A DNA stretch of 64,000 nucleotides from the NCBI GenBank assembly GCA_013368445.1, contig JAACJO010000036.1, positions 155,698-219,697 on the forward strand. Direction: 5' to 3'. This document shows positions 8,783 through 58,829 of this stretch, in pieces; position 1 is the stretch's first letter, and each line of letters starts with the position of its first letter. A program made the translations under genes and the position numbers. Below the pieces are notes generated by a model. The model saw only the letters and a program-made list of their open reading frames with translations, was not told the DNA's origin and did no database searches. This stretch comes from Leucocoprinus leucothites. Lineage: Eukaryota > Basidiomycota > Agaricomycetes > Agaricales > Agaricaceae.

Positions 8783-10111
8783 TCAGTACGCGTTGTAATA
8801 CGTGTTCCTGGGAAATAGTGGTACGGCAGACGTGATGTACCTCCCACCGTCAGTGGCAGGTGCAGATACTCCATTATTTGCGGGTGCGTATTGGTTATAG
8901 GTGCAAGGACCCAGCGGAGAGCATTGATGATGGGACTCGAAACCAGGGTCTAAGGCAGCACGATGCTTGGGTTGGAAATCTGAGCGGTCATCATGATAAT
9001 AGCCCCAAGTCTGGGATTCTTGCCCGAGCATGTGCGACTCTCGGTGTAATTGGATATGAGGATCAAATTTTTGAGTATAAGAGTTGACCGGGGGATAATT
9101 ATGATAAGCTCGGCGAGGGGTAGCTGGATGAGAGAGGTGTCGTGATTCCAGGTGTTGGTTTTTTGAAGGGAGGGGTGATTGTACCATCCTGCTTTCTTCG
9201 AACCAGGCAGGATAGGGCGTGTCGTCATTCATCTGGCGACGGTATACATCATAGCTGGGGTGACGCATGAAGTTAGGGGAGGCACTAGGTGTCTGGATTT
9301 CATATGAGTTTTGAGGCGGGACATGGTGCTTGGGTAATGCTGGGAACCGTGCCTGGGGCAACCTCACGGCACCGGCTGTGTCGGGACAGTTATACTGACG
9401 GGTAATGACAGGTTGGTATGGTGCTCGTGGTCCTACAACGGTCGGTGCAGGTAGAGGTGCAAGGGACGAGCTCCCGCCCACATCAGAAGTAGAGCTGTGT
9501 GAGGGTATGGCCTCAGTTTCCGGCCCGCTGGAAGGGGAGGAAATGCGATCACCGGAAGAGAACCAGGTCTCAGCATTAGAGAGTCGATCTATACCAGCGC
9601 TGGTTTCCTGGTGGACAAACCCATCTCTAGACGACTGTGAGGCACCTGAAGGGGGCGAGGTCTTTGCGTGAGGAAATTGGGCTGGCGAAGGAGGAGCGAC
9701 TGGATTGCGTATAAAAGATGGTTGAGCGAAGTGAGGATCGGCTCGTGGCTCCTTCAAACATTTGAGGATATAAGTATTTCTGCAGAAGAATAGTGACTGG
9801 CAACTCACCTCAAAGCTTAACCTAGTCGATTGTACGTGAGGTGATGTAGTCGAACTTTGGGTCTGGCAAGCCACTGTGGGATCTGTTGACTTCCTGAGCG
9901 CATGAATATAAATCTCCGACTTCTGACTAGATGAGCTGTTGTCTGTGGTGGATTTGGAGCTATCGACAGCTATGACGAAACGTGCCATCGCATCATAGCT
10001 CGAAGCTGAAGGTCGTCCTGAAAAATTGTAGTTGTGCTGATTTCCAGAGACGTGAGTAAAGGAGCTGTTAGAAATGACGAAATTGCTGGCGTTGGTGAAG
10101 CTGCCCGACAT
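8783..10111 (-). CDS. P1: motif plus disordered-tail family protein
   Basis: Predicted 423-residue cytosolic protein without membrane spans or signal peptide; function unknown. Exon 1 (10111-9809) carries the family N-terminal motif at about residues 4-30: F-T-N-A-S-N-F-V-I-S-N-S-S-F, then THVSGNQHNYNF. Exon 2 (9751-8783) is Pro/Ser/His/Tyr-rich. It contains WFEESRMVQSPLP near residue 284 and HRESHM near 336, both shared with P4 and P8, and ends in the aromatic tail RNTYYNAY. The intron (9808-9752, 57 nt) is phase 0 and happens to be open, so an uninterrupted frame also exists; the intron is supported by P4, where the homologous 67-nt intron is not a multiple of three. Start chosen at the ATG 54 nt downstream of a TATATAAAA box, although the frame is open further upstream. 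Paralogue of P4. Confidence 0.75.
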   Translation of the reverse strand: MSGSFTNASNFVISNSSFTHVSGNQHNYNFSGRPSASSYDAMARFVIAVDSSKSTTDNSSSSQKSEIYIHALRKSTDPTVACQTQSSTTSPHVQSTRLSFEVSCQSLFFCRNTYILKCLKEPRADPHFAQPSFIRNPVAPPSPAQFPHAKTSPPSGASQSSRDGFVHQETSAGIDRLSNAETWFSSGDRISSPSSGPETEAIPSHSSTSDVGGSSSLAPLPAPTVVGPRAPYQPVITRQYNCPDTAGAVRLPQARFPALPKHHVPPQNSYEIQTPSASPNFMRHPSYDVYRRQMNDDTPYPAWFEESRMVQSPLPSKNQHLESRHLSHPATPRRAYHNYPPVNSYTQKFDPHIQLHRESHMLGQESQTWGYYHDDRSDFQPKHRAALDPGFESHHQCSPLGPCTYNQYAPANNGVSAPATDGGRYITSAVPLFPRNTYYNAY

Positions 10112-10164
10112 GCTCGTTGTAGGAATGAGGGAAGAATGAGGTAGAATAGGCTTTAACAGCCATG

Positions 10165-10173
10165 TTTTATATA
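10165..10173 (-). promoter_or_regulatory. TATA-like box of P1
   Basis: Reads TATATAAAA on the minus strand, 54 nt before the P1 ATG. Similar A/T boxes stand at nearly the same distance in P4, P6, P7, P8, P10 and P11. Confidence 0.5.
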
Positions 10174-12886: not shown

Positions 12887-13885
12887 ATGCCGGAGGCACC
12901 TCGTTTCAACATTACCGGCAGCACCGTCACGTATGTTGCTGGGAATCAAACGAACTATAATTATGGCGATAGGAGCCCCCTTCCCCGCCACGATCCCCCT
13001 ACCAACTATGTTACAGAAGAATCTCAGCCACAGCCGTCAACTGAAGAAACACCTGGCGAAAACGGTTCTCGTTCTGAGGTACGACCAACCCTGTTACTCT
13101 GGGCATCGTTCTAGAGCTTAGTTTCCCTTCAGTTTTATGCAGGACCTCAGCCTCCCCAGCACCCCACCGGGCGACGACCTGCGAGCTCACAGCAACCACT
13201 TTCACAAAGTCAGCTGGGCCATGGTCTACATCAAAATACCCCGCCCCCATCCACCGCAACAAACTCGCCTGTTGCTCTCCAAACAACACCTATCCCCGCC
13301 CCACCGCTTTTCAATCGACACGGCTCCCCTCGGTCGCCGCCCTCAGCCCGATCACCCCCCCCTCCCTGGGCTGCTCCGTCAAGTATAGCGAGCACGCCCC
13401 AAGCAACAGTGTCTGAATCCTTCCACCCTCATCCCACGTCTTATACAGGGATGCCTATGCAGGCTCAAACTCCTTTTCCGCCTAGTTTCTTAGCGAACCG
13501 CAGTTGGCAAGGTCCACATGAAAACCGACCGAACCAAGGTTTTGACGCGGCTGAGGGCATTGAACATATGAACGGCTATCATGCGACTGAAGGCGGACAA
13601 TATGTGAACAACTATAGAAGCAATGGGACTGCGCAACCACCCCTCCCACCACGTCAACAGCCTCCATATGAACATTCAACGCCATACTACCACACCACTT
13701 CTCCCCAAGCCTCCGCTGCTCAACGCTCTCAATCTCAAGCCTACACGCCTCACAACCCACCTTATAATCCATACATGCCTCTACACGGCCAACATGATCC
13801 TCGTGCCCAAAACAATCAAGGCAGTGCAACAAGGCCGTTCCCAGCTCAGCCTGAACACAATTACAGACGCACACCCGACCAATGA
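12887..13885 (+). CDS. P2: motif plus disordered-tail family protein
   Basis: Predicted 314-residue protein, function unknown. Exon 1 (12887-13078) begins MPEAPRFNITGS and continues TVTYVAGNQTNYNYG, the family motif in a shorter N-terminal setting. Exon 2 (13133-13885) is rich in Pro, Gln, Ser and Tyr and includes WQGPHENRPNQ and EGGQYVNNY. The intron (13079-13132, GTACGA...TTCAG) is phase 0; a second AG ten bases later would give the wrong phase, and the same choice fits P5. First exon is exactly 192 nt in both P2 and P5. P2 is divergent from P1, about 2.8 kb apart, and convergent with the P3 fragment. Paralogue of P5. Confidence 0.75.
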
Positions 13886-14610: not shown

Positions 14611-14990
14611 TTAGAACAAGGGAGCCACGGCACCCGCTGCGGTGACAAGGACAGACTGGTAGAAGAAATCATGATTCCCAGAGTGGTAAACCGTATGAGG
14701 TGGGATCCCATTGGGGAGAGGCAGAGGCGTATAATCTTGGAATACAGCAGGGGCTTCCGTAGCCCAAGGAATTGGGTCCAGCCCCAGGGAACGGTGGTGA
14801 TTCCTGATATAGTTTTGGTCCTGACTGAACGGCTGCTCCCAGAGTAGACTATGTGAATGTCGTCGAAGTTGAGTGTGCCAGGGGTCAGGTACGGAGTGGC
14901 CCTGAATGAGGTAAAAGGCAGGAGGCGCTGAATCAGAAGAATCAGAATGATGATTCAAATCCCGCCACTGGGTGTAAAGACGAAAACGCG
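14611..14990 (-). pseudogene. P3: C-terminal fragment of a P6-like gene
   Basis: Minus-strand coding remnant matching the last third of P6: TQWRDLNHHSDSS, RRHSHSLLWEQ and the Pro-rich end all have counterparts in P6. The reading frame loses similarity at 14990, exactly where a TA-flanked MITE begins (14993). Neither the motif exon nor the first part of exon 2 could be found on the other side of the MITE (15744-16019), so the 5' part is missing. The end also differs from P6: the frame runs on for about 20 residues past the P6 stop. An ATG inside the MITE can open this frame, but that would not restore the family motif. Confidence 0.75.
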
Positions 14991-14992
14991 TA

Positions 14993-15743
14993 CAGTTGTC
15001 TCTGTGATAACCCATATTTGTAATAACCCATACCCTGCGATAACCCATTGGATGTGGGGTCTCCCGAGTTGGTTCACGGGTGTTTTGATGCAAAAACCCA
15101 TCACTCTGCACTAACCCGTAACCCATAGCCCGTGAGGGTAAAAAAACCCATAGCTCCGGGTACTAAATATAGTAATTGGACTCATTTGTAGCTCAACACC
15201 CGTGTGCTTGTCCTTCACCGGAGGTCAGATAACTAGAATTTGAATAGACATTATTTCACAAACAGTCTCTACATCCACTATACTCCCCACCAAACTACTC
15301 AAAATTCTTGAGAAGGGTCTCAAAAAACTTTAACGACCTCATTCCCACCAAACCCTTCTTCAGGACAGGCTCTGGGTCACAGGGTCAAAGGGTTGCCGAT
15401 GAGGACGCCAAACAGCTATTGGAAGCACCTTTACTCTTAATGAAGCACCTAGCAATACTTCCGGATCCTTTTACTTGCAAAATGGAGTAGATCCTTCATA
15501 GCTTCAACTGGAAACTGCGCTTGGAGGACTGGCGGAAAAGGTGAAGAATACACATCTTGAAGAGTATTTTATCCCTACATACCTCACATCCAGTGTGAAG
15601 TGACATGAAAAATGATCGAAGGAAATCGATTTTAATTGATTATTTTAATGGTATTTCTTTGATCTCTGTCATAACCCATACTCGGTCAAAACCCATAGCT
15701 CGGACCTTCTCCGAACTGCTATGGGTTATTACAGAGACAACTG
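14993..15743. mobile_element. MITE-like element 1, TA target site
   Basis: A 751-bp element with terminal inverted repeats of about 24 bp starting CAGTTGTCTCTGTGATAACC; the right end (15720-15743) is its reverse complement with one mismatch. It is flanked by TA on both sides (14991-14992 and 15744-15745), the signature of Tc1/mariner-type insertion. No transposase is encoded. The interior next to both ends repeats the word AACCCAT many times. It abuts the broken end of P3. Confidence 0.8.
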
Positions 15744-16019: not shown

Positions 16020-16390
16020 TGTCGGGATCGCAAACCCCTGCCGAGCCCTGTCTGCATAACCTCTGCATTATATCGGTATATTATATAAATGGTATCTAAG
16101 TTTCGTCTCGCTGTACTGACCGTATATTTTTCCTTGCATTTATTCATTGTTATATCAATGTACCCAAGCATGTTGTCTATGAGACAAGCTCTGTATTCAA
16201 TATTGTCCTATAAGTAGTGTACCAACATGTCCTGACACTTCAGTTCTCACGTCGAGATACTGAAGTGAGTTTGTTATCTAGTCTTTCTTACTTTTCTTAC
16301 TTATGCTAATCATATTTGTAGTATATATTTATCTTTCAGGTATTGACTATAGTTCTCACGTCGAGATACTGAATATATATTTATCTTTCA
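16020..16390 (+). repeat. Left LTR of the Copia element
   Basis: 371 bp. It holds an internal near-repeat of about 24 bp (TTCTCACGTCGAGATACTGAA occurs twice). It differs from the right LTR at about ten positions by eye, nine of them transitions and eight in a CpG/TpG/CpA context. Confidence 0.95.
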
Positions 16391-16451
16391 GGTTATGGGC
16401 CCCGCCCCATTGCATTGCTAAAGAAAGAAATTATCTATATTGAAGTTTACA

Positions 16452-19400
16452 ATGACTACCAATATGCTGTCCTCAGCAGTTCCGAAGTTGGATGTGTCTG
16501 GTAGTAACTGGGCGATATTCGCAATACGTTTCCAGACAGAGGTCCAAGGAAAGGATCTGTGGGGCCACTTTGATGGTAGTGAACCTCGCCCTGTAATCAG
16601 AGCTTCACCTTCTGCTAGTCAGACTACTGGATCCCAGTCCGGCGCCACTCCTTCTGCTCCTACTACACAACCCACTGCTACTGCCTCTGATGCTACTCCT
16701 GCAAACCCTGCCGCTTCGAGCACTGCCTCCACTCCTGCTACTGTTCCTGCCACACCCTTGCAGACTGCCATCCTTATGAGCACTCAGCCTACCCCCACTG
16801 TCACGACAACAGCATCTGCCATCCCTACTCAGCCTACACAGCCTGCCGTCACAGTCGAGATGGTCAAGAGTTGGGTCAAGAATGAAAAATTTGCTTGTGC
16901 CTTGCTCGCCCAACAACTTCCTGACTCTACCTTTTTGGTTGTATCTGGACAGCCAACCGTCAAAGAAATGTGGGCGGCCATAGTACAGGAATACACTTAC
17001 AAGAGTGCCTTCTCACAGGCACATCTTCGTTGTGACTTCATGTCCATGTGATGCCCTGATAAGGGTGATATTCGTATGTTCCTGAGTGAGCTTCACTGCC
17101 GTAAAGCCGAACTTGAAGCTGTCGGTGTCATCATTAATGATGATGATTACAGGAATGCAATAATACAATCCTTACCTCAGTGGCTTGCTTCATATGCTTC
17201 GAACCAGCTCTCTGCTGCCCGACTCCATAGCTCCCTCCAACACACCATAGATCCCGACATCTTGATCATCTTAATTAGTAATGAATGGGATAGAACACGC
17301 CCCGATCGATCCAGGGGTGGTGCCACTAAAGCCGAAAGTGATGATGCTTTGATGGTTGTGGGAAACAAGGGAGGGGGCAGTGGTGGAAACAATGGTGGCG
17401 GTGGAAAGTTCAGGGGAAAGGCGAAAAAGAAGGGGCCATGTTGGATTTGTGGCGGTGATCACTGGAAGAGAGAATGCCCTAAGAGAGGCACTAGTGAGAA
17501 GAAGGAGGGGGAGAAGGGAGGTAATGCACTTAGAAAGGGTGCCAGTGCCAATATTGTCACCAAAGACGATGACGATGACTGCTCCTTCATGGTAGAGGAG
17601 CTATCGGACTATGAGAGTGACTCGAGTTGGTCCGAACTCGAGGCTGATCACTTGAATAGTGTGTCGGAAAGTGATGAAGGGATCACAAGTGAGATTGATT
17701 TCGGATCAGATTTTGAAGAAGTCAATATTGCTGCAAATGAAGAGGTTGTCAGTGTCAGCGAATCCACTCAAACACGAGTCGAGGTGTTCGACTCAGGTGC
17801 AATGACTCACATTACTCCCTACCGTGATCATTTTTCCACCTTCAAATCCATTCCCCCTTGACCCTTGCATGCTGCAAATAAGAAAGCATTTGACGCTGTT
17901 GGAAAGGGTGAAGTCACTTTAGACCTACCAAATGGTGCCGCTTCATCTCAACTCCACCTGAGTGAAGTGTTGTATTCCCCTGAGGCTGGTTACACACTTG
18001 TATCCATTGGTCGGCTCAACGATGCCGGATTCTCCACCACTTTCGCGAACGGAAAGTGTGTCATCCGCGATGCAGGCGGCGCCCGAGTAGCTGAGATCCC
18101 AAGGAATGGGAAAGGCCTGTATAAACTAGTCAGAGAGGGTGCAGAGGAAGTGAATGTGGCGAGTGAACCACTCACCCTAGATATGCTCCATCGCCACTTG
18201 GGCCACATCGCTCCTGGAGCTGCTCAGAAACTTGTCCGTGACGGTCTAGTCACTGGCTTGAAGCTTGACGATGGAAGTGATACCGATTTCTTCTGTGAGT
18301 CTTGTGCCTATGCAAAGGCAACTCGGCTACCGATTTCCAAGTTTCATGAGGGTGAGCAGGCAGAAAAGTTTGGTGATGAAATCCATTCAGATGTCTGGGG
18401 ACCTGCACACACTGAAACAAAGAGGGGCAAATGTTATTATGTGACATTTATTGATGATTTTTCGAGGTGGACTCACGTTGATTTCCTCTCAAATAAATCT
18501 GACGTCTTCGAGTCATACTGCAACTTCGATGCATGGTGTGAAACTCAGTTCGGTGTGCATATCAAAGCCCTGCACTCAGACCGTGGTGGTGAATACACTA
18601 CGAACAAATTTCAGTCATACCTCAAATTCCGCAGCACGAAAACAAAGCTTACTGTGCATGATACACCCCAGCACAATGGCATTGCTGAATGCCGAAATCG
18701 AACCATCATCGAATGCACTCATGCCTTGTTACACGCCAGTCATTTGCCGAAGACACTGTGGGCAGAGGCAGTTGCCCATGTCATGTGGTTAATGAACCAA
18801 ACGGGCACGAAAGCGATAGAAGGACAAACGCCTTTTGAGGCATTGTACCATCAGAAGCCAGACTTGAGGGCAATACATGAGTGGGGAGAGGAGGTGTGGG
18901 TACACCAAGCCAGTGGCAACAAACTCGGTGGATGGGCAAAGAAGGGACGATGGGTGGGATATGACACAGAGAGCAACGGCTCTGGTGTGTATTTCCCAGA
19001 CACGGGCACTGTCAAAATTGAAAGAAACTTTTGTTTTGTCAATATGGGTTGCTCTGGGCTCGAGGGGGAGCACTTACCTGGGAACAAGCCTCGAAACGAC
19101 GGCCCATGGAACAGCAAACCTTCAACAAGCCATCCTGATACAACCCCTATCCCTCCAACTCCCTCCCCTGACGAAAAACCCGCTGAAACCAAGCCACACA
19201 AATCAAGTGCTGAGAACAATGATGTCAACCCCGGAGAAGTACCCTGCAATGACATTCCTCGAGCCAGAAGGACTCAGCGCATTAGAAATCCAAGTGCAAA
19301 AGCTCGGGTGATCCTTGAGGGGATGGCGGTGACATTAGCCGAGGAAATCGATTGGGTTGATGTCCATGTTCTTGCGGCAGATATTGAGGAGACAGAGGGG

Positions 19401-20969: not shown

Positions 20970-20976
20970 GGGGGAG

Positions 20977-21347
20977 TGTCGGGATTGCAAACCCCTGCCA
21001 AGCCTTGTCTGCATAACCTCTGCATTATATCGGTATATTATATAAATGGTATCTAAGTTTTGTCTCGCCGTACTGACTGTATATTTTTCCTTGCATTTAT
21101 TCATTGTTATATCAATGTACCCGAGCATGTTGTCTACGAGACAAGCTCTGTATTCAATATTGTCCTATAAGTAGTGTACCAACATGTCCTGACACTTCAG
21201 TTCTCACGTCGAGATACTGAAGTGAGTTTGTTATCTAGTCTTTCTTACTTTTCTTACTTATGCTAATCATATTTGTAGTATATATTTATCTTTCAGGTCT
21301 TGACTATAGTTCTCGCGTCGAGATACTGAATATATATTTATCTTTCA
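20977..21347 (+). repeat. Right LTR of the Copia element
   Basis: 371 bp, same length as the left LTR, preceded by the polypurine tract and followed by the CAGAG target duplication. Confidence 0.95.
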
Positions 21348-21352
21348 CAGAG

Positions 21353-21924: not shown

Positions 21925-22289
21925 TATTTTTGAATTTAGTCCACGATGGCGCACCATCTAATACTGTCATATGTTGGTATTATGATGCCAACTCAAGTTC
22001 ATGTAACCATTAGACGCTCACTTACTCTAGGCGTCTTATTGTCATTCTGGAATTCTAAGCTTTTCTTTCGCTTTGTCGGACCAGATGTTTCTTGCGTCAG
22101 AGAATTTTCGATTGAGTCCAGTTTTTTGGTACTGACCATAGCTACTGCCAGAGCATCATTTTTTTGACTTTACAGTGAGGCCCAGTATTAATAAATTACC
22201 GGAAATCATGTGGGAAAAAATAGGTGCTGACTCAGATTTTGTCAAGCTTAGTCATAATTAGTAAGCTTCGGTGTCCCGTAATGTCAGTG

Positions 22290-28851: not shown

Positions 28852-28892
28852 ATTAGATTGTATTCAAAACTCATATTTACCATTGCACCCAC

Positions 28893-28923: not shown

Positions 28924-29334
28924 TTTGCTATTTATGGCCTTCAGGTTAATTAAATGTAGCCCACTTGTGGGCTTTACCCGTTGTGGTACAAGCGTGTTTC
29001 TTGTGCCGAAAATAACGCCCATCCTTGCTCTATTCGAAGTGGCTCGATACTGAGAAGTCTTGCAGCTCACTCAAATGACTTAGTTACCTCCAACCAGCAC
29101 ACTATCTCTAACACCCTCTCTCCGCTTTTGTCTACACAGATAGCGAAGGCTCACGAACCTGCGTCCCTCCGTGAATAAACCGGAACCAGGGAGAGCCTAT
29201 CCATATGGGTATTTTGGTGTATGTACTATGAGCTAATTTTGTACATGCACGGAAAAGATCAATCGTAATGCGGGGGCCGTTCCCTCAATAAATGGAGGAG
29301 TCAAGCCAAGAATGTGTGTAAAATGGTGGGCTGA

Positions 29335-29529
29335 TCAATACGCATTGTAATACGTGTTACTGGGAAATGGTGGTACGGCAGACATAATGTACCTCCCACC
29401 GTCAGTAGCGGGTGCAGATACTCCGCTATTTGCAGGTGCGTATTGGTTATAGGCGCAAGGACCCAACGGAGCGCATTGGTGATGTGACTCAGAAACAGGG
29501 TCTGAGGCGGCGCGGTGCTTCGGCTGGTA
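29335..29529 (-). pseudogene. Former C-terminal end of P4
   Basis: Sixty-five codons in the P4 frame after its TAG, still open to a TGA at 29335 and closely matching P1 (SAVPPFPSNTYYNAY versus the P1 end). It shows that the TAG is a recent lesion. Confidence 0.7.
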
Positions 29530-30688
29530 CTACGACGAATGGTCATTATGATAATAGCTCCAGGTCTGGGATTCTTGCCAAAGCATATGTGATTCTCGAC
29601 GTAATTGGGCGTGAGGGTCAAAATTTTGAGTATAAGGGTTGGCTGGGGGATAACTGTGATAAGTTCGGCGAGGGGTAGCTGGATGAGACAGGTGTCGTGA
29701 TTCCAGCTGTTGGTTTTTTGGAGGAAGAGGTGATTGTACCATCTTGTTTTCTTCGAACCAGGCAGGATAGGGCATGCTATCACTCATCTGACGTCGGTGT
29801 GCATCATAGCTAGGGCGAGGCTTGGGATTGGAGTGGACACTGGGCGTCTGCGTCTCATATGGGTGTTGGGGCGGGGCGTGATGCTCGGGTGGTGGTGGGG
29901 GTTGTGCCTGGGTCGACCTCACGGCACCGACATTGTCACGACAGTTATACTGATGGCTAGAGACGGGTTGGGATGGTGCGCGCAGTCGTACATTGGTTGA
30001 TACACGTAGGGGTGCAGGGGATGAACTACTGCCGATACCAGAAGTAGTGCTGTGCGAGGGTATGGCCTCGGTTTCTGCCTCGCCGGAAGGGGAGGAAACG
30101 CGATAACGGGAAGGCAACCAGGTCTCAGTACGAGAGAGTCGATCTATACCAGCGTCGGATTCCTGTTGGATAAACCCATCTCTCGACGAATGTGGGGCAG
30201 GGACACTTGAAGGAGGCGAGGTCTTTGCACGAGAAAATTGGGCCGGCAAAGGAGGAGCAACTGGACGGCATATAAATGATGGTTGAGGGAGGTGCGAACC
30301 AGCTCGTGACTCCTACGAACATTTATGGATATAAGTGTTTCCGACAAACTGGCCGTAGAATAGTGCGTTGGCAACTCACCCCAAAGTTGGACCCGACCGA
30401 TTGTATATGAGATGATGTGGTTGAGCTTGAAGCCTGGGAAGCTGCTGTGGCATCCGTCGGCTTCCTCAGCTCATGAATGTAAACCTCGGACTGCTGACTG
30501 GATGAACTATTTTCTGTGGTATATTTGGAGTTATCGACAGCCAAGACGAAACGCGCCGCAGCATCATAACTTGAAGCTGAGGGTTGTCCTGAAAAATTGT
30601 AATTGTGCTGATTTCCAGAGACGTGAGTAAAGGTGCTGTTAGAAATGACGAAATGGCTAGCGTTGGCGAAGCTACCGGACATGCTCAT
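29530..30688 (-). CDS. P4: motif plus disordered-tail family protein, shortened
   Basis: Paralogue of P1. Exon 1 (30688-30380) starts MSMSGSFANAS and continues HFVISNSTF and THVSGNQHNYNF, the clearest form of the family motif. The 67-nt phase-0 intron uses GTGAGT and CGTAG. Exon 2 (30312-29530) is Pro/Ser/His-rich with WFEENKMVQSPLP and RRESHMLWQ. An in-frame TAG at 29530-29532 ends the protein at about 363 residues; the following frame down to 29335 still matches the P1 C-terminus, including the aromatic tail NTYYNAY, so roughly 65 residues were lost recently. Whether the shortened protein works is unknown. Start may also be the second ATG two codons on. Confidence 0.7.
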
Positions 30689-33440: not shown

Positions 33441-34431
33441 ATGCCGGAAGGACCTTCTTTCAAAATTACCGGCAGTACTGTCACGTATGTTGCTGGCGAT
33501 CAAATCAACCATAATCATGGCGGTGGGAACCCCCTTCCCCGCCACGAACCCCAGACCATCAACAATGCTGCAGAAGAATCCCAACCACAGCTATCAGCTG
33601 AAGAAACGCCTAGCGAAAGTTCTCGCTTTGAGGTATGACTCTCTGTCACGCTGGACATCGTTCTAGGGCTTAGTTCCCCTTCAGTTTTCTGCAAGACCTC
33701 AGCCTCCCCAGCACTCTACAGCGCGGCGACCTTCGAGCTCGCAGCAACCACCTTCACAAAGTCAGTTGGGCCATGGTCTACATCAAAGTAGTTCGCCCCC
33801 ATCCACTGCAACAAACCCGCCTGTTACTCTCCAAACAACTCCTAGCCCCGTGCCACCGCCCCTCGCTCAACATAGCTCCCCTCCGCCGCCACCCCCAGCC
33901 CGATCAACCCCCTCTGCCTGGGCTCCATCGAGTATAGCGAGCACGCCTCAAGCAACAGCGCCCCAACCTTTCCACCCTCATCCCACAGCGACGCCTGTGC
34001 AGGCTCGGCCACCTTTTCCGCCCACTTTCTCAATGAACCGCGGTTGGCAAGGACCATACGAAGACCGGCCGAACCAATACTTCGGCACGGCTGAGGGCAT
34101 TGAACAGAGGAACGGCTACCACGCGACTGAAGGCGGGCAGTACGCAAGCAGCTACAGAAACAGTGGGACCGTGCAATCACCCTTCTCACCACGCCAACAG
34201 CCTCCATATGAACATCCTGCTCAATACTACTACCGCACCACGTCTCCTCAAACCTACGCTGCTCAAAGCTCTCGATCTCAAGCATATACCCCTCACAACC
34301 GACCTTATAATTCATACGCTCCGCCTCCACACGGTCCACAAGATCCTCATGTCCAGAACAATCGAGGCAGTCCAACAGACCCGTTCCCCGCTCAACCTGA
34401 ACACCACTACAGGCGCACACCCGACCAATGA
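33441..34431 (+). CDS. P5: motif plus disordered-tail family protein
   Basis: Paralogue of P2, predicted 312 residues. Exon 1 (33441-33632, 192 nt) begins MPEGPSFKITGS then TVTYVAGDQINHNHG. The motif is weaker than in P2: the conserved Asn is Asp and the N-Y-N-Y end is N-H-N-H. Exon 2 (33685-34431) is Pro/Gln/Ser-rich, with WQGPYEDRPNQYF and EGGQYASSY matching P2. The intron is phase 0 with the same acceptor choice as P2. The longer upstream open frame (from 33336) is not used because the ATG at 33441 aligns with P2 and sits below a CTATACTT box about 45 nt upstream in both. Confidence 0.75.
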
Positions 34432-35214: not shown

Positions 35215-36294
35215 CTAGCGGAACAAATCATGCTCGGAGGGGTAAGCCGTGTAAGGTGGGCTCCCACCAGTGGGGGTCGGAGGTGTATTATCTTGGAATG
35301 CAGCAGGGGCTTCCATAGCCCAAGGAATTGGCTCCAGCCCAAAGGAGTGGTGATTCCTGGTATGGTCTTGCTCTGGACTGAATGGCTGCCCCCAGAGTAC
35401 ACTATGCGAATGTCGTCGAAGTTGATCATGCCGGGAGTCGGGTATGGAGTGTCCCTGGACGAGGTAAAATGCAGGAGACGCTGAATCGGAATGATGATTT
35501 GAATCCTGCCACTGGGTGTATTGGCGTGGCGGGACCTCGGGCACGTTGTGACTATATTCCTGGTGGTACGAGTGGGAACGAGCATCTCCTGTCCAAGGAT
35601 CGTGTGCACCGTTGATATCTAGATGTTCGGAGTTTTGAGGTGACGAGAACACTTCAGGTGATCCGTTTGGAGTATCTCCTTTGGCCACAAAGGTATATTG
35701 CGATGGGCTTGGGTGCTCTGAATAAGATTGAATAGGTGATGGTGTTTGCACAGGTGCTTGATGTGATACTACAGAAAATTTGCCCGGAGGCACCTCTGAG
35801 AGAGGACCGGGCCGATTCGAAGGCTGCGTTCTTGAAGAATAGCTTGAGGACGCATGTACAGTGACCCAAGGATCCACCAGTGGGACAGGGTTGGGTGAGA
35901 GAGGCGGCAGTGATATGTGAGTATCCGTTAGGGAGGTTACTTGATTCTGCAATGGACCGTTTCGGTGTCCATGGCCAGCCGGAGGTGTGTTGTGTAAGTC
36001 TCCTGTATTTGTTCCCGCAGGAGACTGCTGAGGGCCAGATTGCGGACGCTGAGCGACAATCAGTGCGTTAGGCTTGTATTCACCGTTGGACAGCTCAGTT
36101 CAGAAAAGAGTTCTTACTGGCGGACTCGAACCTATGTTTCCTTCCGACATCCGGTCGTCCGTTGGAATATTGTTAGGTGCATGTACCTTGCTGTGCTTGC
36201 CCCGTCCAGGTCCATAATTGTAGTTCACCTGATGTCCAGCAACGTAGGTGAAATCACTTCCTTGTATGTCGAACTGAGGGACGGCGGTTGCCAT
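35215..36294 (-). CDS. P6: motif plus disordered-tail family protein
   Basis: Predicted 336 residues, unknown function. Exon 1 (36294-36118) begins MATAVPQFDIQGSDF then TYVAGHQVNYNYGPG. Exon 2 (36048-35215) is Pro/Ser/Gln/His-rich and contains HNTPPAGHGHRN and RRHSHSVLWGQ near residue 269, the latter shared with P1, P4 and P8. The intron is phase 0 (GTAAGA...GCTCAG). The ATG at 36294 is preferred over one 33 codons upstream because it aligns with P2/P5 and follows an A/T box at 36338-36346. The 3' half lies in the segmental duplication, whose other copy is the P3 fragment. Gene is convergent with P5. Confidence 0.75.
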
Positions 36295-38127: not shown

Positions 38128-39075
38128 ATGCATTCAGTCAACTTCACAAACAGCAGTGTTTTCGTGATAAACAATAGTACTATCACTCATGTTTCCGGAA
38201 ACCAAGTCAACTATGATGTTTCCGTTAAATCCTCCTCTCGTACGACGAATTTCACTGCACCTCATCGACAGCAATACAACCCCGCACATGGCCCCACCAC
38301 CACCACAAGTTCTGGGCCTGCTTTTATACCAGAGTCCCATGCTCAGAAATCAGTCATTCCAGTTCGCGCTCAGCGAGATGACGAGGTGAGCACACTCTAA
38401 GCCGCTCCTGAATAAGGATGGTATATTAACTCGGGGGACTCTCAGGGACAACAAAACCAACTTCAGGTCTCTCGAACCTCTGGATCGCCTACGCGAGACA
38501 TCGCTCACCCTGTCGCCTCTGGAGCACAATCACTCGTTATTACTCAGTCTAGTTCATCGACCCCATCCAAGTCCACCCCTCCTCCGTCCCGCTGGACCTC
38601 TGCACTGAATATTGCCAATGAACACGGGCAATCCTGCCCTCATACATTCTCTGAAACCCAGTACCCCTGGGATAATAGCGTATACACCACACAAGCCCCA
38701 CTATCGCCTTCAACCGGATCCCAATATACCACCTCCCAAATGCCGTTTATCCCCGGTGTTACTGCTACTACGACAATAACAACAACAAACGAGGGGAGCA
38801 ACCCAAGTGATCGTCAGCACGAGAACATGATGATGCCTCACCACCCCTACTGGAGAGAAACAAGCTCAGTTGCACCACTGCCTCCTCGAAACTTCCACAG
38901 CCAGATGCACCACTCACAAGCTTCTGAATTCTATCATCCAAATCATTTTGAACAGCGTGACCAGCGGTTGTTCTTCCACCAGGAAGAGACTGCTCATTCT
39001 GCTATTAACGCTTCGAAAAACGCGTCCATAAATATTTGTCGTTGCCAACATACAGATCCGGGCTGTGCCCAATAA
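38128..39075 (+). CDS. P7: motif plus disordered-tail family protein
   Basis: Predicted 295 residues. Exon 1 (38128-38385) begins MHSVNFTNSSVFVINNS and continues TITHVSGNQVNYDV, the family motif with Ile in place of the second Phe. Exon 2 (38446-39075) is Ser/Thr/Pro-rich, His-rich near the end, and finishes with a small Cys-containing tail (CRCQHTDPGCAQ). The phase-0 intron is GTGAGC...CTCAG. Its second exon has no internal ATG until 38740, so the exon was placed by the splice sites and open frame. The MVQSPLP and RRESH motifs of P1/P4/P8 are not present. P7 converges with the dynein gene. Confidence 0.7.
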
Positions 39076-44442: not shown

Positions 44443-44484
44443 CCGTGCCGAAGGATCATGACTCCTCTTCATCCCCAAGCATCA

Positions 44485-46276
44485 ATGGTCGCCAGCTTTG
44501 AGCGCTCAAGCAACTTTTCCATCAACAACAGCTCGTTCACTCATGTCGCTGGTAGTCAGCACAACTACAACTTCCGAGGTCAACCTGACTTCGAGACGGT
44601 AGCGCAAGTCACAGGAGCCAATACCGGGTTAAATCGTTTACCTCCTCAAAATGTTCCTCCTGCTGTTGAATCTTCAAACGCACAAAGACTCGAAGACGCC
44701 CCTGATACACCGGGCAGTCATAGGGTGCGCGCCCTAATACTTCTACTCATCATTAGGTATTAATCTTTTTCTTTTTCTTCAGCCCCATGATCGTCAACGG
44801 CAATCCCGTACCTCGACCATGAATACAAATGACTCACCGCCGCCCGTTGCCGCTCGTCCTATCTCGAGCGACTCTCATCGCTCCACGATAGAGAGCCAGG
44901 TCGCTCCCCGCCTTCAGGAGTCTCAAGACACACTCTCCCCAACAGGACGTTCTACTCCGAGGATTCCCTTTGTACATCCAGGACCTCCACCCCCACTTCT
45001 AGTGGACCCCAGTCTACAGCGTTTACGGCTGCTGCAAAGGCTTGGAGAAGCTCCTCTCACTGATTCTCCTGCCTCTCCTGCGAGGTCTCCATCCCCACAA
45101 AATTCACCAAGCTCAGCGCTGTCCCCTCCTTTACGAGAAGCATCATTACCCGCAACAGGCGCAAATCAAACACACTCCCTTTATCCCCCACAAAGCGCCG
45201 GGTCTCAATACCCAGTGCGTTCAGCGACACCAGCACGCTTCAGCACGCTACCCACTCCCCCACCTTCCCGCTCCGCCGCCGAGACACCTCGACCTCCGGT
45301 TCCTCCTCGTCCACCCTCGCTAGCATTCACAGGAGGCTATCCTACCTCTCCTCCGATCAGAAATAGCACTTTGGATACCCTAATAAGCGTTCGCGCATCC
45401 CCTAGCGCTCGCGCATCCCCTAGCGCTGCACCGCCATCGCCCCCGAATTTGACACCGCCTACTGCTCCCGAGGAATTAGCAACAGCGCGTCATAGCCCAC
45501 CACGTGCGCCTTGGGAGTCGAATGCCGGTAGCGTTCCATTACCTTTGAGTCCTTCGAGTCCGATGATAGGTCGTCGCTCGGACAGCCTTGCAAGTAATGG
45601 AATTGGAAGACCTCTCCCGCCGGGTAATGCGTGGTTGGAGGGACAGAGGATGGTTCAAACTCCTCTTCCGAATATCCAGGAAAACACTTATCGTCCCTAC
45701 GATTTCCCTCCTACCCCTACCCCTCACCCTCATCCCTATGCTCATGCTCAGCCTCAGTACCACACGCCACCCTTCCGAGCGCACACAACCCCCACCCCCA
45801 CTCCTGCCCCTTCGTACCCTCACTCTCCCCCTTCCACCCCATACGCTCACCCGGCACCTGTAAACCAGGATATGTACGTTCAACGTATCCAAACTCACTC
45901 TTCCATCCGCCGCGAATCACACGATATACTCTGGGGCTCAAGTTCTGGACCTCCTGCCACACATACTCCTACACCTGCACCTGCACCTGCACCCGGACTC
46001 GCAGGTACACCTCCCATGCCCATGTCACCTCCAACGCAATTTCCTCGGCCCAATGACTTGAGCCCTTCCTATACCCCGCGACTTCAAGCTCCAGCCCCGG
46101 ATGCCTGGGTCCCGCAAATCGGTAGCCAATCTGGATTGAACATGAATGGAGGACGTCCTGGGCCTGGATACAGCCACTCGGAGCCTCAACCTCCTCAGCA
46201 GCAGCAACAGCAGCAGTGGGATTCTCGGGCTGGTGGAGTGTTGATGTCTGATTCGTTCTATTATCAGCCTTATTAA
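44485..46276 (+). CDS. P8: motif plus disordered-tail family protein, longest of the first group
   Basis: Predicted 577 residues. Exon 1 (44485-44724) begins MVASFERSSNFSINNSS then FTHVAGSQHNYNF, almost the P1/P4 motif. Exon 2 (44783-46276) is extremely Pro/Ser/Thr-rich, with WLEGQRMVQTPLPN near residue 364, RRESHDILWG near 456, a short CAG-coded Gln run (46195-46217) and the aromatic end DSFYYQPY, recalling the P1 end TYYNAY. The intron is phase 0. The ATG at 44485 was chosen because it aligns with family starts (M-x-x-S-F) and is 50 nt from the TATA box; an in-frame ATG at 44458 would add nine residues. It is divergent from dynein and is the only member of the N/S-motif group outside the duplication neighbourhood. 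Confidence 0.8.
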
Positions 46277-48956: not shown

Positions 48957-50610
48957 ATGCCTTCCGTCAGTTTTCAAGGTGCCAAAAACTTCATTATTTC
49001 TGGGGGTAACTTTGGCGATGTTTCTGGGAATGTTGCCAACTACAATTTCGGCAGCGGGTTCGAGTTCACTCGGGTAGAGAATTATGCCGACTGTGTAGAT
49101 GCTCCAAGTGCAGATACGACACGTCATCTTCCCTCTCGTAGGAGGTATATGCAAGACCAACGCCGAAGTACGGAAAGCACGCCCCCTAAGCCCAGGATAG
49201 CTTCCGTCCCACACAGGTCGGATTCTGCCCCCGCCTCTCAGGCCATATTATGGCTGAGCTCACCACTGCATTCTCCAATCATACACGATAGGGCAATTGA
49301 TCAGCCCGACGGACCGTTTCCATCCTCCCCTACTAGTTCTACAGTCAGTTCGCTTATGGAATATTCAACCCCTCCTACCGAGCATGCCACTATTGCAGAC
49401 GTCACTCAGGTTGTTCAACAGCTTGACGACATCTCTATTGACTCTACTCCACCGATCGAGTCCTCAAGCTTGAATGGTCGTTCTATGCCGACTTCCCAAG
49501 ACGGCAGCTCGGAAATCTTGAATGAAGCGTTGGCCCATGTTCATGTGCAAACGCAGGAACAGCCTGCGGTACCTGACAACACTAGGAGGTCTGAGAACGA
49601 GGTAGGCACCTCCACCAAACTTCTATTCTGTACCCCGACCCTAACAACTCCTGTAGCCACCTCCGATGCCGCCTCGTGTCGTAGACACTGCCCGGATGAT
49701 AAGATCGGAACAGGTCAACCAGCCACCTCTGGTACAATCGCGTCCCAGCCGTCAAACGGAACCTAATAATATATTCCTTCAACCTACCCCTAATCACAAT
49801 CCGGTAGTGAATCCTCGAGGGCCACCTCCGCCAGTTCCTCCGCGTCCTGCGACGCTCTCCTTAACACCTATGGGTACCGTAGCTTTGGATGCGACCTCGG
49901 GGTTACAATTTTCCAACCAGCCCATCCCGCGCACTTCATCCCCAGTGTCAATGCAAGCAGCACAGGAAGATCCTGCTGCTCGCGTCCAACGACATGATAT
50001 GTCAGGGAAGAACGGTGCTGAAAACCATTCTGCTCCCGGTCTACAGCCATCCGGTTCCAATCCGCTGACAGCGGCACAGCGATGCTCAAATACTATGGTG
50101 GAGGAGCCTGCTACAACAGCGCCAGCGGGACTTGGTGATGCTCAAGATGATTCTGCTCCATTGGCCGGTACTCCTACCCTGTCAACAATTACAGAATTGT
50201 CTGCGACAGAGATAGCTTCTGATACCCAGCCTCACTGGACAGCCAATTCGATTGAAAGTTGGGTTGATAGTATTGGGGGTGGAGACGAAGGTTTACAGAG
50301 ACATGAAGAATGGAGGGTAAATTCCCAATCACCCTATACTCTCAAAGATTCGCAACATGCTTGCCGGAAAAGCCTTAATGTCGACCCAAGACAGCATCCC
50401 ACAGCATCCCACATTCCTAAAATTCCTTGTTATGGTCAGTACACTGATCGTTTTAGTAGCGGACTCTGGAGCATCCCTATGCAGCAATTTCCTGTTCATC
50501 ATCCGTATTTTGCGCCCTATTCTGTTTCTGGCTTCCCATTGAATCCATCCACATTGTACAGAGATCCTTACGGGGGACCTGTGTTTTTCGCGCCGTGGTC
50601 TGGTGTTTGA
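48957..50610 (+). CDS. P9: motif plus disordered-tail family protein, ISGGNF group
   Basis: Predicted 532 residues. Exon 1 (48957-49601) begins MPSVSFQGAKNFIISGGNF and continues GDVSGNVANYNFGSG; the rest of this exon is Ser/Thr/Pro-rich, longer than the first exons of P1-P8. Exon 2 (49657-50610) opens with PPPMPPR and is low in complexity until PHWTANSIESWVDSI near residue 406, a segment shared with P10. It ends with an aromatic and Gly/Pro-rich stretch (GGPVFFAPWSG). Intron phase 0 (GTAGGC...TGTAG). First gene of the head-to-tail plus-strand array P9-P12. Confidence 0.8.
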
Positions 50611-51389: not shown

Positions 51390-53121
51390 ATGCCTTCTCT
51401 CAGCTTCGAAGGAGCTAGCAATTTCACCATCTCTGGAGGAAATTTCAACGACGTCGACGGCAACGTGATCACATACAACTTTTCGAATGGACTGCAAGAT
51501 CTTCCACCTAATACTCTTGCGGCTCTCGCGCCACAGAATGTGCCCAACAAGACCGGAAATCGTCTCTCTCGTTCAGAGAGAAAGAAGCTAGCTGCACGGG
51601 AACAGATGGCGAGCCCTCTCCCTAGCGCTCACATTCAATCCGTTCCCTCGTCCGTCGCGCCGAGTTCACCACCCGCTATGGCTATGTCGCCTTCCTCACA
51701 TCCCTCTCGCTCCCAGAGGTCGACGCTGGCTGCCCCGCCGGTGTCGCCAGCCTTGGCTTACACTCCTTCTCCGGTTTCGGATTCTTCATTCGATTCCGGA
51801 TTTGAGAGGTATGACACACCAAGCCCTCGCTCTTCAAGGCATTCGACGCCCCCGACAGATATCGAAGAGCACCGGAACGTTGGCAGCTCTGGCGTTTCGG
51901 CGCCAGCCCACGAATTGGACCCAGATACCCTCACTCCACTCACCAACTCCCTGGGTCTTCAACGGTTTACGCCTGGCACAATATCTCAGACACTACCAAC
52001 GTTGCCGGAGGTGCCAACGCCTGTTCAAGCACCGACTCAAAATCTTTCACCTGCAACCGAGAGTCCAGCTGAATTTGGTCTCGAGGTACGGTATCATCAT
52101 ACCAATTCTCCATCACTCTTGACTAATTCGATATTCCTTGTAGCTTCGTCGCACCCCATCAGGGCCTCCTCCACCTCCACCGGCATCTACTCGCCCTGTA
52201 AGCCGTACTCCCCGCGTTCAAGCACTACCGGAACTAGTTCACCTGGAGCGTCGGGATCCCCTTGGACCACCCCCGCCCGTTCCACCTCGACCTGTGATGC
52301 TTTCACCTACCTGGACCAGCACAACTGCTCCCGTTGACACTCCATTCCGTCTTTCCCGCCCAATGTCCACTGCACCAACTACCCCAACTCAGGCACACCG
52401 TTCTGCTTCACCGGACTCGCAAGCTTTGGCTTCGATGGGACCTGTTACAGAACAGTCTGAGTTAGAAGATCCCGCCGTACGATTTGCTCGACTCCAATCA
52501 CAGAGGTCCCCTACAAAGGGATATGCTTCAGGGCTCAGTTCAAGCTCACGGGGCATGAGTAATGGGTATACTCCGTCGACTCCCAGTGCCATGTCTCGCC
52601 CTCCTCCTCCTCCTTCCGCCACTCGCCCGACCTCACTACCAGCATCATCAATTGTCACACCGTCGCCAAATTTAGCTCCTGACCAGGCCCTAGCTCCCAT
52701 TCCTCAATTTGCTGCCCCTCAAGCACCTCATTGGACACAACACTCCATATCTGGATGGGCAGGCGAAGTAAATGGTCGCGGGTTTGATTCAGATACACTA
52801 TCCTCAGGAGATAGCAGGAGTGTCCGACCTCCTACCTCACCCCCTCACCAACAGGGGTACCCATACGACGAGCAGCAGTACCACCATCAGCCTCCCGCGC
52901 AGCACCACTATCACAATGTAGGCTCACATAACCCGGCTTGGGGAGGCGCTCAGCCTCATGCGCATCAGCAGCCATTCGGATTCAATCAGGCTCCTAACCC
53001 TCCCTTCGCTCCCTTTCCTTTCAACAATCCGCCTCCTTTTACTCCTTTGGGTGTACCGTTTTTCAATGGTCCCGCCTTTGGTGGACCGGCTTTCGGTGGT
53101 GGATTTGCGTTTCCTGGATGA
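51390..53121 (+). CDS. P10: motif plus disordered-tail family protein, ISGGNF group
   Basis: Predicted 557 residues. Exon 1 (51390-52085) begins MPSLSFEGASNFTISGGNF, then NDVDGNVITYNF. Exon 2 (52144-53121) starts LRRTPSG followed by a proline run, carries FARLQSQR near 52490 (shared with P11 as FSRLQSHN) and PHWTQHSISGWAGEV near residue 425 (shared with P9). It ends with Phe/Pro/Gly repeats such as FGGPAFGGGFAFPG. Intron phase 0 (GTACGG...TTGTAG). The shared conserved blocks inside otherwise unalignable Pro/Ser sequence argue that the tails contain short functional motifs. Confidence 0.8.
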
Positions 53122-54985: not shown

Positions 54986-56441
54986 ATGTCGGCTGATACT
55001 ACTATCATTTCGTTTGAAGGTGCTAAGGGTTTCGTTGTATCAGGTGGAAACTTCGGAACAGTTCGCGGGAATGTTACAACTGTCAACTCTGGTGCTTCTG
55101 GTTCAGTCTCACGTTCTCATGGACCAAAGCCAACATCACACTCCCAACCTGACTCGCACCAGGTCGGAGACCCCAACGGGAGGAGCTCAGCAACCAGTCA
55201 CCATGAGCCTCCCAATGGTAGTCGACGAACTCGGGCGCGCGCCTCCCGTGCACCACGCCGAGCGCCTAACCCCGGTGTCTCTGATGGTCAGGCCGCTCTG
55301 AGCGATGTCAATTATTCCAATAGAGCTGACTCTCCCGGCGATACGGGGCATACCATCTCAGCGGCCCACGATCTCAACTTGGCTACACCACCGCCTCCTC
55401 CACGACCACCTTCAATTCATCTCCCTCAATCCTCGTTGGAGGATTCATCGGCCGGAGTGGGCTGGATACGGACTAGCAACCAACAACAGCAGGACATCTT
55501 TGCTGCTCCACTCGATGCCTCCGAAATGCAAGATGTTCCTCGATTTCAAGTGAGCTCTATTAATTCTGTAGTATGTCTTTCGTGCTTACCTTTCTTGTCT
55601 ACAGGTTCCTGAGAGTTACATGCCCACCGTGAACTGGTCGACACAACCCGTCTTTTACGACAGGTCTGCCTATCGCAGTCAACAACTCACCACGTACGGC
55701 TCATACTATGGAGCCGCCGGATCGGCCTCGACCATCCACTGCCCTTCGTGGTCGTTCGATGGAGTAGGTCCAGCGTTATCATACCATACACCGTCAAATG
55801 CGATGGCCTACTCTAGTGGTAATGGCATTACGCCGCAGCCATGGGGAAGTGCCCAACCGTTTTTACCGGGTCAAAGACATTCTCGCCCCCTCCCTCCCAT
55901 CCCGCGCACACAGTCGACCTCGAATACCAATTCTTTTCAGGGTCATCCAATCGGTGTATCAAGTTTCTCGCCATACGCGTCCCATGCATCCCATGATTAC
56001 ACTGGTCACGTACCGCACCCGGTTCCACTCCAAAATCCATCACACTATTCTGCTCGTTCAACACATATCAACGAAGCAGGCTGGTTGTCTCCAGTTCATT
56101 ATACGAATGTCCCATACATGACTGTTGTACCAGAAGTCCCTTCTGGCCTCGAGACGGAAGATCATGCCGCTGTCTTTTCCCGACTTCAATCTCATAACAT
56201 GCTGTTGGAAGGGAACGCTTTGGGGCTCATTAGTCCAGCCCCAAGTAGAGACGCCATATATTATACACCTCAAATTTCTACTCCGCAAACACAAGCTCAT
56301 CTTCAGGATGCTGGAAAACACCAGAGTGGCAGTTTTCGGGGTGGAAGTAGTTCCATCTATGAGGGGACTAGAAGTTCCTACTCATGTTGTTCTCAAGCAT
56401 GCTGGTCTCCGCATTCGGGCCATCCGATGTATCACGTCTGA
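54986..56441 (+). CDS. P11: motif plus disordered-tail family protein, ISGGNF group
   Basis: Predicted 466 residues. Exon 1 (54986-55549) begins MSADTTIISFEGAKGF, then VVSGGNFGTVRGNVTT; the usual N-Y-N-F end is replaced by T-V-N-S, so the second half of the motif has drifted. Exon 2 (55605-56441) starts VPESYMPTVNW and is Ser/Pro/Tyr/His-rich. FSRLQSHN followed by NALGL near 56175-56220 matches P10. The C-terminus contains several Cys and His residues (SCCSQACW). Intron phase 0 (GTGAGC...TACAG). Confidence 0.75.
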
Positions 56442-57428
56442 GCGACAATCTCCAGGCCGCGTTTACCATCCATTAAAGGGCTCGAAGCCACCTCCTACCC
56501 CGGGAATGCGTTAAACCCTTGAGTTGTGTTGCACGCGCGGAATAATTTTACTTGTCTTCGTTCTTTCGCATGCCAGTTTGATCATAGTAGCACCATCGTC
56601 ACCCGTACTATACCAAGGTGTTGGATGTCCGAGTTGTTATTCCTTGTTTCTTTCTCCTTCCCGGGGATAGGACGGAACGATTAGGGCCTTATTGAATAGC
56701 TCGAGAGGATTGCCTCATGTCTTTCCAAATGCTTCCTCAGAGGAATCCACCCTTCGTCTACCAGTCAAACACCGCTTTTTTGTTTGATGAACCACGAACC
56801 TTCAGAACAGAACAGCATCGGCGCCCATCCCATTTGGGCGTAAAGTGTTATTTCCCTGTCAGAGTGTCGGTAGTCACCGGCAGTGCTCGCAGCCGGCTTC
56901 TACTATTAGTACTTTAAGGTACACCTATGTGTGGGTTTCTGAAACAAATCGATCATGACAACAATATCTTCATAAAGCGCTATAGATTTGATCGATGGCA
57001 CAACTCGCAAAGGAAAAGCTAAAAATATCAATTTGGGTACTTTCGCACGATCGGGTCTTTGCCCTGACATGGCTCTTCTGCTAATGCCCCTTCGCAACGA
57101 ATTATCCAACAACCCCGGCTGATGATGCTCTCCCTCAGCTCTCATTAACTCCTAAGTTCGAGCTTTGTCGGTCGCTCCTTCAGACGATGCTTACCGCTAC
57201 ACAGACTCTAGTGCTGAACAGCTATTCTGCCAGTGATACTCCGTAAGCTCTGAACGGGAGACTGTCAAGTCCTAACTGACTTTTCGAATAGCTCTTTAGC
57301 GGTATGCTGTTTTAAATCAGAAACCCAACGCAGGATTATCGACTATATGCACTGCCCAGATGATCGCGTATTAAGGACAAAAGGATGACCGGAGCAAGAC
57401 TACCGTTCATTCAGCCTTCGAACCCAGC
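56442..57428. other. Intergenic stretch between P11 and P12
   Basis: About 1 kb, no gene supported. An A/T box (GTATTAAGG) lies about 55-60 nt before the P12 ATG. Confidence 0.5.
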
Positions 57429-58829
57429 ATGCCTTCCATCGCGATATCGTTCAACGGGGCCAAGGACTTTGATATCTCAGGAGGGAACTTCGGCAAGGTT
57501 AGAGGTGATATCAAAACGGTCACTGTCAGCGATGCCCAATCACTCCCCTCAATCCTTGGCTCACCACTCCTAAACCGACAACGAGGTGGGAGAAGCAGAG
57601 CTTCCAGGCCCATCCCAAGGCCTACCCCAGCACGTTCCCGACGTTCTTCAGTGTTGAGTTCATCTTCCCATGATACACTTGTTGATCGCGAAAACGACAC
57701 CGGCGAAGAGTCGGACAATACCTCCCCTCCTTCCTCTGTAGACGTTCACCAGATTGATTCACTCGTTTCGTCCGTTTTTTCACCTGCGCGGCCTCCCTCA
57801 GAGTCATACGTCTTCCCCCCAGTAGTGGTGCCCCTACCCGGCCGGTCTTCCGTGCATCAATTGGCCCAGTCGATGTCTGACTCATCCCATGGCCTCCGAA
57901 CACTAGTTCAAAGCTGGACTGCGTCTTCCGCTGAGGTGCGATCCTTTCTTATTCCTGCTGTGACCTTGGTATGACTCACTTCCCCAATTCGATAGCCCCC
58001 TGGAACGCAACCCACACGCACATCAAGGCAATCCAGCCGGGCTCGCTCTTCCCTACATGCCTCTTCGCCGTTTATCAGACCCACCAATCCAGAACCATTT
58101 CAGGTTGCGGGAGCGCCACCGCCCTCTAGCACTCACACCAGTAGATCAGATTTAGCTTCTTCCACTCACTCTCGTCACACCATACCTCGTGATATACCAC
58201 GCCCTCTTCAAAACGTCCAGCATTCAGCCTCCAACCACAGTCGTACTCCTCGATCTGCTGTACTTGATCCGGGTGTTGGCCCTGCACCTATTATTACTCG
58301 GCTAACGTACGCTGAGATCCATTCTCGGCCTCTGCCACCGATTCCAGCCTCGTCTCATCAGATTTCCTCCACACCAGCTTCTCGAGTTCATCAACGTGGC
58401 ACCATTTACATCGCGGCGACTATCAATGGTGATGCTCCCCAGAGCGTCTACTCGTCCCCTCACGCGACCGTCAATCGTCACAACTGTTCGCTAACCGGAA
58501 GTCCATGTGGGTGTTCCTCGAGAGCGCCCACTATCCCGACCGTGCATTCTTCTCGTGGGCCGACAGTGGACTCACAATTCTACTATCGGCAACCCTCCTT
58601 TGATATGAGAAGTCCATATGCCATGGTACCATACACCGCCCCAATCCAAACAGCAGTCTGGTCCAGGGACCCTCGGGTTTACCATGGCTTTTGGCCTGGA
58701 CACTCTCAACCGACACAGCAATATCGTCAACAGATGCCGTATTCTGGTCCTGGCCCAAGTAGATATGGTGTTCCATATCAACACACCGTGGGATGGATGG
58801 GAGGTACAGGCTATGGTCAATTCCGGTGA
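57429..58829 (+). CDS. P12: motif plus disordered-tail family protein, ISGGNF group
   Basis: Predicted 446 residues. Exon 1 (57429-57935) begins MPSIAISFNGAKDFDISGG, then NFGKVRGDIKTVTV; as in P11 the Asn/Tyr end of the motif is lost. Exon 2 (57996-58829) starts PPGTQPTRTSRQ and ends with a Tyr/Gly/Pro-rich tail (GGTGYGQFR). The second exon lacks an early ATG and was placed by splice sites and open frame. Intron phase 0 (GTGCGA...GATAG). Last member of the array, 1.2 kb from the 3' end of the NLR, convergent with it. Confidence 0.75.

Follow-up and report, generated by a model that had tools for sequence, protein, structure and literature searches.

What might a row of genes be for, when each encodes the same short N-terminal motif followed by a tail with no recognisable domain, and when a gene for a nucleotide-binding oligomerisation domain-like receptor (NLR) lies beside them? 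This question is raised by a 64,000-nucleotide stretch of the Leucocoprinus leucothites genome (hereafter, the window), the end stretch of a 219,697-base contig (JAACJO010000036.1, here C36) in an assembly of 47 Mb and 110 contigs (GCA_013368445.1). The window holds an array of eleven genes (P1, P2 and P4–P12) that start with the motif and continue into a Pro/Ser/Thr-rich tail. We propose, at a probability of roughly 45%, that these genes encode NLR-less partners, that is, adaptors or scaffolds, of the motif-bearing NLRs of Agaricomycetes. This reading rests on four lines of evidence: the likeness of the motif's first half to that of NLRs, the constrained and probably disordered tails, the adjacent motif-bearing NLR, and the diverged copies of the genes.

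The N-terminal motif and the tails

In all eleven genes the motif stands at the very N-terminus, and all eleven motifs were located where a preliminary description of the window had placed its motif-plus-tail genes. In the alignment F, V and G are invariant and I is nearly so, and in nine of the genes the spaced hydrophobic residues are followed by G[ND], this pair being GH in P6 and GS in P8. Each gene was scored with a hidden Markov model (HMM) built without that gene and its near-duplicate. The real sequences scored 26.8–57.8 bits, against 6.8–13.5 bits for the best shuffles, and in each of the eleven genes none of 1000 shuffles reached the real score; the motif is therefore real, as the preliminary description had it, and more than Asn/Ser composition. 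That description had also raised the possibility of a known globular domain, and none was detected: the eleven motif segments matched no domain in Pfam (best E 0.077) or in the PDB (best match E 1.6).

The tails consist of 10–22% Pro, 11–18% Ser and 13–22% order-promoting residues. No Pfam match exceeded the cut-off in any of the eleven array proteins, the one sub-threshold match being to WxL in P9 (E 0.07). AlphaFold2 modelled P10 alone with a mean predicted local distance difference test score (pLDDT) of 40.6 and two short, low-confidence helices; for the first 60 residues of P9, modelled as a monomer from the 11-sequence alignment, the mean pLDDT was 56.9 and DSSP returned nothing. Both models are weak evidence because the alignments were shallow. 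On composition, the Pfam result and, weakly, these models, the tails are probably disordered, in agreement with the earlier view that they have no fold. Where that view went wrong was in treating them as otherwise unrelated modules: P1/P4 and P2/P5 are duplicates (69% and 67% identical), P9/P10 are 27% identical over their length, and common segments occur in P9/P10 and in P1/P4/P8, in a comparison run with composition correction and SEG off, so that weak E-values are inflated.

With two paralogue pairs and four allele pairs taken together, the pooled ratio of nonsynonymous to synonymous differences per site (pN/pS) was 0.51 for the tails and 0.39 for the motifs; the tails are coding and constrained. 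In the identity, divergence and Pfam runs the P1 and P5 exon junctions were a few bases off the final models, which affects 1–3 codons. Six strict P.[VLIMA]PPR sites in five genes (0.24 expected) and three [RK]PLPP sites (0.05 expected) were counted in the tails, and these SH3-ligand-type sites are only suggestive of interaction sites.

A genome search with the P9 motif also returned an unlinked further motif gene (L066, C11:1665557-1668634; E 0.005), which has Pro/Ser-rich sequence downstream. No motif gene was found on the plus strand of loci L001, L002 and L004 from the first pattern search.

Relation to the NLRs of the genome

The product of the adjacent NLR gene matches NPHP3_N (E 4.9e-24) and NACHT (E 1.3e-6) in Pfam. 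It begins with about 125 Pro/Ser-rich residues, followed by FNQAHDFTISHSQFIDAS and, shortly after, by NACHT, and its motif is alike to that of the array in the first half only. NACHT itself is absent from all eleven array proteins (Pfam). In the genome at least 87 NACHT matches lie over the cut-off, the window NLR being outside the 87 listed. A pattern corresponding to the first half of the array motif, picked after viewing examples and counted at 60 of these 87 matches, occurred upstream of NACHT, within the expected span and on the NACHT strand, at 55 of the 60 loci; in a roughly matched antisense control, from which strands with a P-loop-like pattern were excluded, it occurred at 13 of at most 60.

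An HMM was then trained on 52 NLR peptides, none of them from the window, which were left from 59 unique ones once a manually compiled list of off-position peptides, together with a rule on length, had excluded seven. Its top six among 2037 six-frame fragments of the window were the window NLR, P4, P1, P10, P9 (E 0.017) and P8, with P7 ranking 9th and P11 10th. As judged by these sequence comparisons, the first half of the array motif resembles that of the motif which the genome's NLRs carry N-terminally. The preliminary description had likened the array motif to fungal amyloid signalling motifs; the link to NLR motifs upholds this for the first half, and self-assembly, the other part of the proposal, is a property that the array proteins may have.

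Decayed pieces resembling the tail part of P11 exon 1 (38–57% identity, with stops) were found at positions 121716-122062 and 202412-202600 of another contig, C23. The first lies 4.1 kb from an NLR copy at C23:116284-117597, the second 2.3 kb from one at C23:198804-200111. Array-type genes have therefore been neighbours of NLRs elsewhere too, so that the linkage extends beyond the window.

The subfamily of the window NLR is much expanded, with dozens of copies at 70–82% identity. Many of the matched stretches contain stops, some of which are perhaps just the gene's own end. In the window NLR and at four further loci (L046, L053, L071 and L073) a long Pro/Ser-rich stretch that resembles the array tails precedes the motif.

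A second, diverged copy of the locus

The genome search with the P9 motif revealed a second, collinear array on C23, where positions 29267-73500 align with the window except for smaller gaps and two large insertions confined to C36 (window 16020-21347 and 22190-28923), whose open reading frames we take to be Copia-like retrotransposon and Helitron-like. Since the two contigs overlap end to start and the tested exons of a dynein-like gene inside the array are open in both, we infer that the contigs represent the two haplotypes of a dikaryon, and hence that the copies are alleles; the dynein gene is presumably single-copy. A mating-type search (PF12737) intended to reveal a dikaryon gave no match, but neither did its controls, so that it carries no information on this point. 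The C23 copies of P8 and P9 are D9756_010648 and D9756_010649.

The left flank (window 162-8500) is approximately 100% identical between the copies, and the median divergence per 200 bp is 1.5%. Within the locus, blocks of 0.2–3.2 kb (200-bp windows over 6%) diverge by 8.5–16%; P8 is covered in full and followed by a separate block of 0.2 kb, P9 and P11 are affected at their 5′ ends and P6 in part, and the NLR is included as well. Further blocks lie upstream of P4 and in the interval from P6 to P7. Synonymous divergence (dS) is 0.30 for P8, the copies of which are 76.5% identical, and 0.34 for the NLR (78% identity to its positional counterpart), computed with the first of two C23 splice-site candidates that lie six bases from each other. 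In P9 the synonymous difference (pS) over the first 200 codons is 0.22–0.31, P11 is diverged in its 5′ half (exon 1, 79% identity), and P6 is moderately diverged (dS 0.14). Low values were obtained for P2 (0.0045), P10 and P12 (0.009), P7 (0.015), P5 (0.018) and P4 (0.024), the P10 protein showing no difference at all, and intermediate ones for two dynein exons between P7 and P8 (0.065–0.068). The P1 value was set aside, since a frame difference towards the end of its C23 copy inflates it. If the copies are allelic, the locus thus presents a feature of the allorecognition type: alleles that are strongly diverged (P8 as a whole, P9 and P11 in their 5′ parts, P6 in part) within a region that is similar elsewhere.

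Old alleles under balancing selection, their footprint narrowed by recombination, fit this pattern. Balancing selection is best supported for P9 and P11 because no close third copy of their first exons was seen: besides the two copies, the P9 exon found only P10 (39%) and a 36-residue P11 piece (composite query), and the P11 exon found only short pieces at 38–57%. For P8 it is possible. A decayed copy of the P7–dynein–P8 segment at C13:69283-76579, in which dynein contains stops, carries P8-like pieces with an exon 1 resembling C36 and an exon 2 start resembling C23; either both allele lineages predate that duplication or the C13 copy joined in conversion. In the case of the NLR, another C23 copy is closer to the window NLR (82% over 438 aa) than is the positional counterpart, and dozens more reach 70–76%. 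Given this large and similar family, NLR divergence may reflect paralogue turnover, and we dropped it as proof of balancing selection.

Gene models and neighbouring features

In nine of the array genes the top or tied-top candidate of an intron scan was a GT-AG intron in phase 0 that follows the exon encoding the motif; the introns of P1 and P5, likewise in phase 0, were modelled on those of the duplicates P4 and P2. The P10 model is identical, letter for letter across all 557 residues, to D9756_010650 (NCBI). An in-frame stop ends P4 early, making it shorter than P1, and the start of P8 may be a second in-frame ATG nine codons downstream. No motif or motif exon was found for P3.

Table 1. Positions of the array genes, the P3 fragment and the NLR gene in the window
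Feature	Position	Strand	Model
P1, motif and probably disordered tail	8783..10111	-	exons 10111-9809 and 9751-8783
P2, motif and Pro-rich tail	12887..13885	+	intron 13079-13150
P3, P6-like tail fragment	14611..15162	-	no motif found
P4, P1 duplicate	29235..30688	-	intron 30379-30313; interval extends to the position matching the P1 end
P5, P2 duplicate	33441..34431	+	intron 33633-33702, by analogy with P2
P6, motif gene	35215..36294	-	intron 36117-36049
P7, motif gene	38128..39075	+	intron 38386-38445
P8, motif gene	44458..46276	+	intron 44725-44782
P9, motif gene	48957..50610	+	intron 49602-49656
P10, motif gene	51390..53121	+	intron 52086-52143
P11, motif gene	54986..56441	+	intron 55550-55604
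P12, motif gene	57429..58829	+	intron 57936-57995
NLR, NACHT (NPHP3_N/NACHT)	60434..62408	-	exons 62408-61964 and 61911-60434

A cross-copy alignment of P1-P2-P3 (8369-16019) with P4-P5-P6 (29049-35520) shows an apparent three-gene block duplication, approximately 78% alike. Inside the array, between P7 and P8, lies what we take to be a dynein-heavy-chain-like N-terminal gene (39500-44026, minus strand), one exon of which had no Pfam match. Positions 1-161 and 3422-3801 hold dispersed repeats, of which several contigs carry close copies.

Discussion

The motif had been presented as undescribed-looking. Wojciechowski et al. (2022, PMC9815663) describe a set of agaricomycete motifs, NLR05/08/22/29/44, all five of which overlap. 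Usually located at the very terminus of NLRs, they are amyloid-like and proposed as a basidiomycete variety of the HET-s-related amyloid motif (HRAM); in Gymnopus luxurians their core spans 25 residues and contains three hydrophobic ones as well as a G[DN] pair. The array motif shares with them its occurrence in Agaricomycetes, the N-terminal position, the spaced hydrophobic residues with G[DN] and, in the window NLR, a related motif upstream of NACHT, although there it follows about 125 residues instead of standing at the very terminus. Judged by this published description and not by motif profiles, the array motif fits this HRAM-like meta-family and so is probably not undescribed. The array genes, unlike the published NLRs, lack NACHT and NB-ARC. 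What is new is the combination: NLR-less disordered carriers of the motif clustered beside a motif-bearing NLR, of which we found no description in the mostly open-licence literature searched.

Related arrangements are known from ascomycetes, where in HET-S-type, HRAM, PP, sigma and PUASM pairs a short motif is common to an NLR and neighbouring non-NLR genes (PMC9815663, accessible text). The array differs in that the motif is single and N-terminal and is carried by eleven proteins with no known domain in the remainder; the HET-S-type effector layout, a cell-death domain with a C-terminal motif, was found in none of the eleven proteins (Pfam). According to the same text, the general survey (Table 1) counted zero matches to NLR05/08/22/29/44 in the C-termini of neighbours and effectors, and special searches yielded a few non-adjacent pairs (Moniliophthora roreri, Fibularhizoctonia and Sphaerobolus). 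The survey covered NLR N-termini and the C-termini of effectors and neighbours, not the N-termini of non-NLR neighbours, and its authors allow for partner motifs elsewhere than at the C-terminus.

As partners of the NLRs, the array proteins might act as follows. An activated NLR would oligomerise via NACHT and so cluster its motifs, which could nucleate or template a beta-type assembly. The array proteins would enter this assembly via their N-terminal motif, and their tails, several of them with PxxPPR or RPLPP sites, would serve as scaffolds that collect downstream partners, while diverged members of the array would supply specificity, possibly in self/non-self recognition. That the motifs are related in their first half, and that there is linkage, constraint and divergence, is observed in the sequence; assembly, partner binding and outcome are the conjectural part.

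A number of results weigh against the partner reading. A known effector domain was found by Pfam in none of the eleven proteins, and the beta-moment test of motif beta-amphipathicity was null (p = 0.31). Protein-database searches, which were word-limited and covered approximately 8000 candidates at most in two cases and 3 in another, returned this species only, too narrow a basis to show absence elsewhere. Constraint did not differ significantly between motif and tail (Fisher p = 0.80). The SH3-type excess is weak because shuffled sequences also reach the count of loose PxxPxR sites (11, against a shuffle mean of 6.7 and a maximum of 16) and because shuffling does not preserve local runs of proline. 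The NLR-trained HMM gave P8 an E of only 0.09 and placed P12 17th, and its 30 listed matches did not include P2, P5 or P6. Furthermore, the G[ND]xxxY half of the motif is mostly confined to the array and mostly absent from the genome's NLR motifs, and since the 47 Mb contain 87 or more NACHT matches, approximately 13% of random 70-kb stretches would include one.

Several of these results, namely the null beta-moment test, the three genes missing from the listed matches, the array-confined half of the motif and the abundance of NACHT matches, which makes a neighbouring NLR no rarity, would be expected if the motif were a generic low-complexity or condensate-forming N-terminus that has no functional tie to the NLR and lies next to one by chance. 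We consider this unlikely, as an NLR-trained model ranks five array genes among its six best window fragments, the leave-out scores far exceed those of shuffles, and P11-like pieces lie close to two further NLR copies. The lack of an effector domain alongside a related motif could also mean that the array proteins regulate the NLRs, acting as decoys or dominant negatives which bind to the NLR motifs and prevent their assembly instead of signalling onward, and their motif is N-terminal as in NLRs and not C-terminal as in the known effectors (PMC9815663, accessible text). A pure cap, however, would need no long tails, whereas those of the array are constrained (pooled pN/pS 0.51) and carry some interaction-type sites, which makes such a role improbable in our judgement.

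A further alternative concerns the divergence only: the differences between C36 and C23 could stem from patchy ectopic gene conversion or introgression among duplicates and not from balanced alleles. The mixed P8-like sequence of the decayed C13 copy and the closer NLR elsewhere on C23 both point in this direction. A close donor for the first exons of P9 and P11 was not seen, though, and the divergence forms narrow blocks over several genes next to a left flank of approximately 100% identity. Conversion of this kind is a serious contender, yet one we lean against.

If the eleven genes are indeed partners of NLRs, their cluster is possibly an allorecognition locus. In the accessible text of PMC11138114, narrow footprints are reported for the het genes of Aspergillus fumigatus, and the ascomycete het loci treated there (hetA–hetE) resemble the present locus in their narrow, strong allelic divergence and in the presence of NLRs at some of them; they differ in gene content, and the present locus is known from two haplotypes and from sequence alone. 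Somatic incompatibility in basidiomycetes is described as poorly understood, its current models being ascomycete-based (PMC8229728). That the window holds an allorecognition locus of a new, basidiomycete design, with a motif-bearing NLR and a polymorphic array of NLR-less disordered proteins joining it via an amyloid-type motif, and with P8, P9 and P11 as long-term balanced alleles, is a doubtful proposition.

Were it true, the array would provide the NLR motifs of Agaricomycetes with a class of partners that has so far been missing. Many agaricomycete NLRs begin with HRAM-like motifs, and the array genes are concrete candidates for the co-localised partners of which the survey in PMC9815663 found virtually none. 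Because a single locus combines diverged copies with a short motif and a neighbouring NLR, the questions of partners and of incompatibility become testable in one mushroom species.

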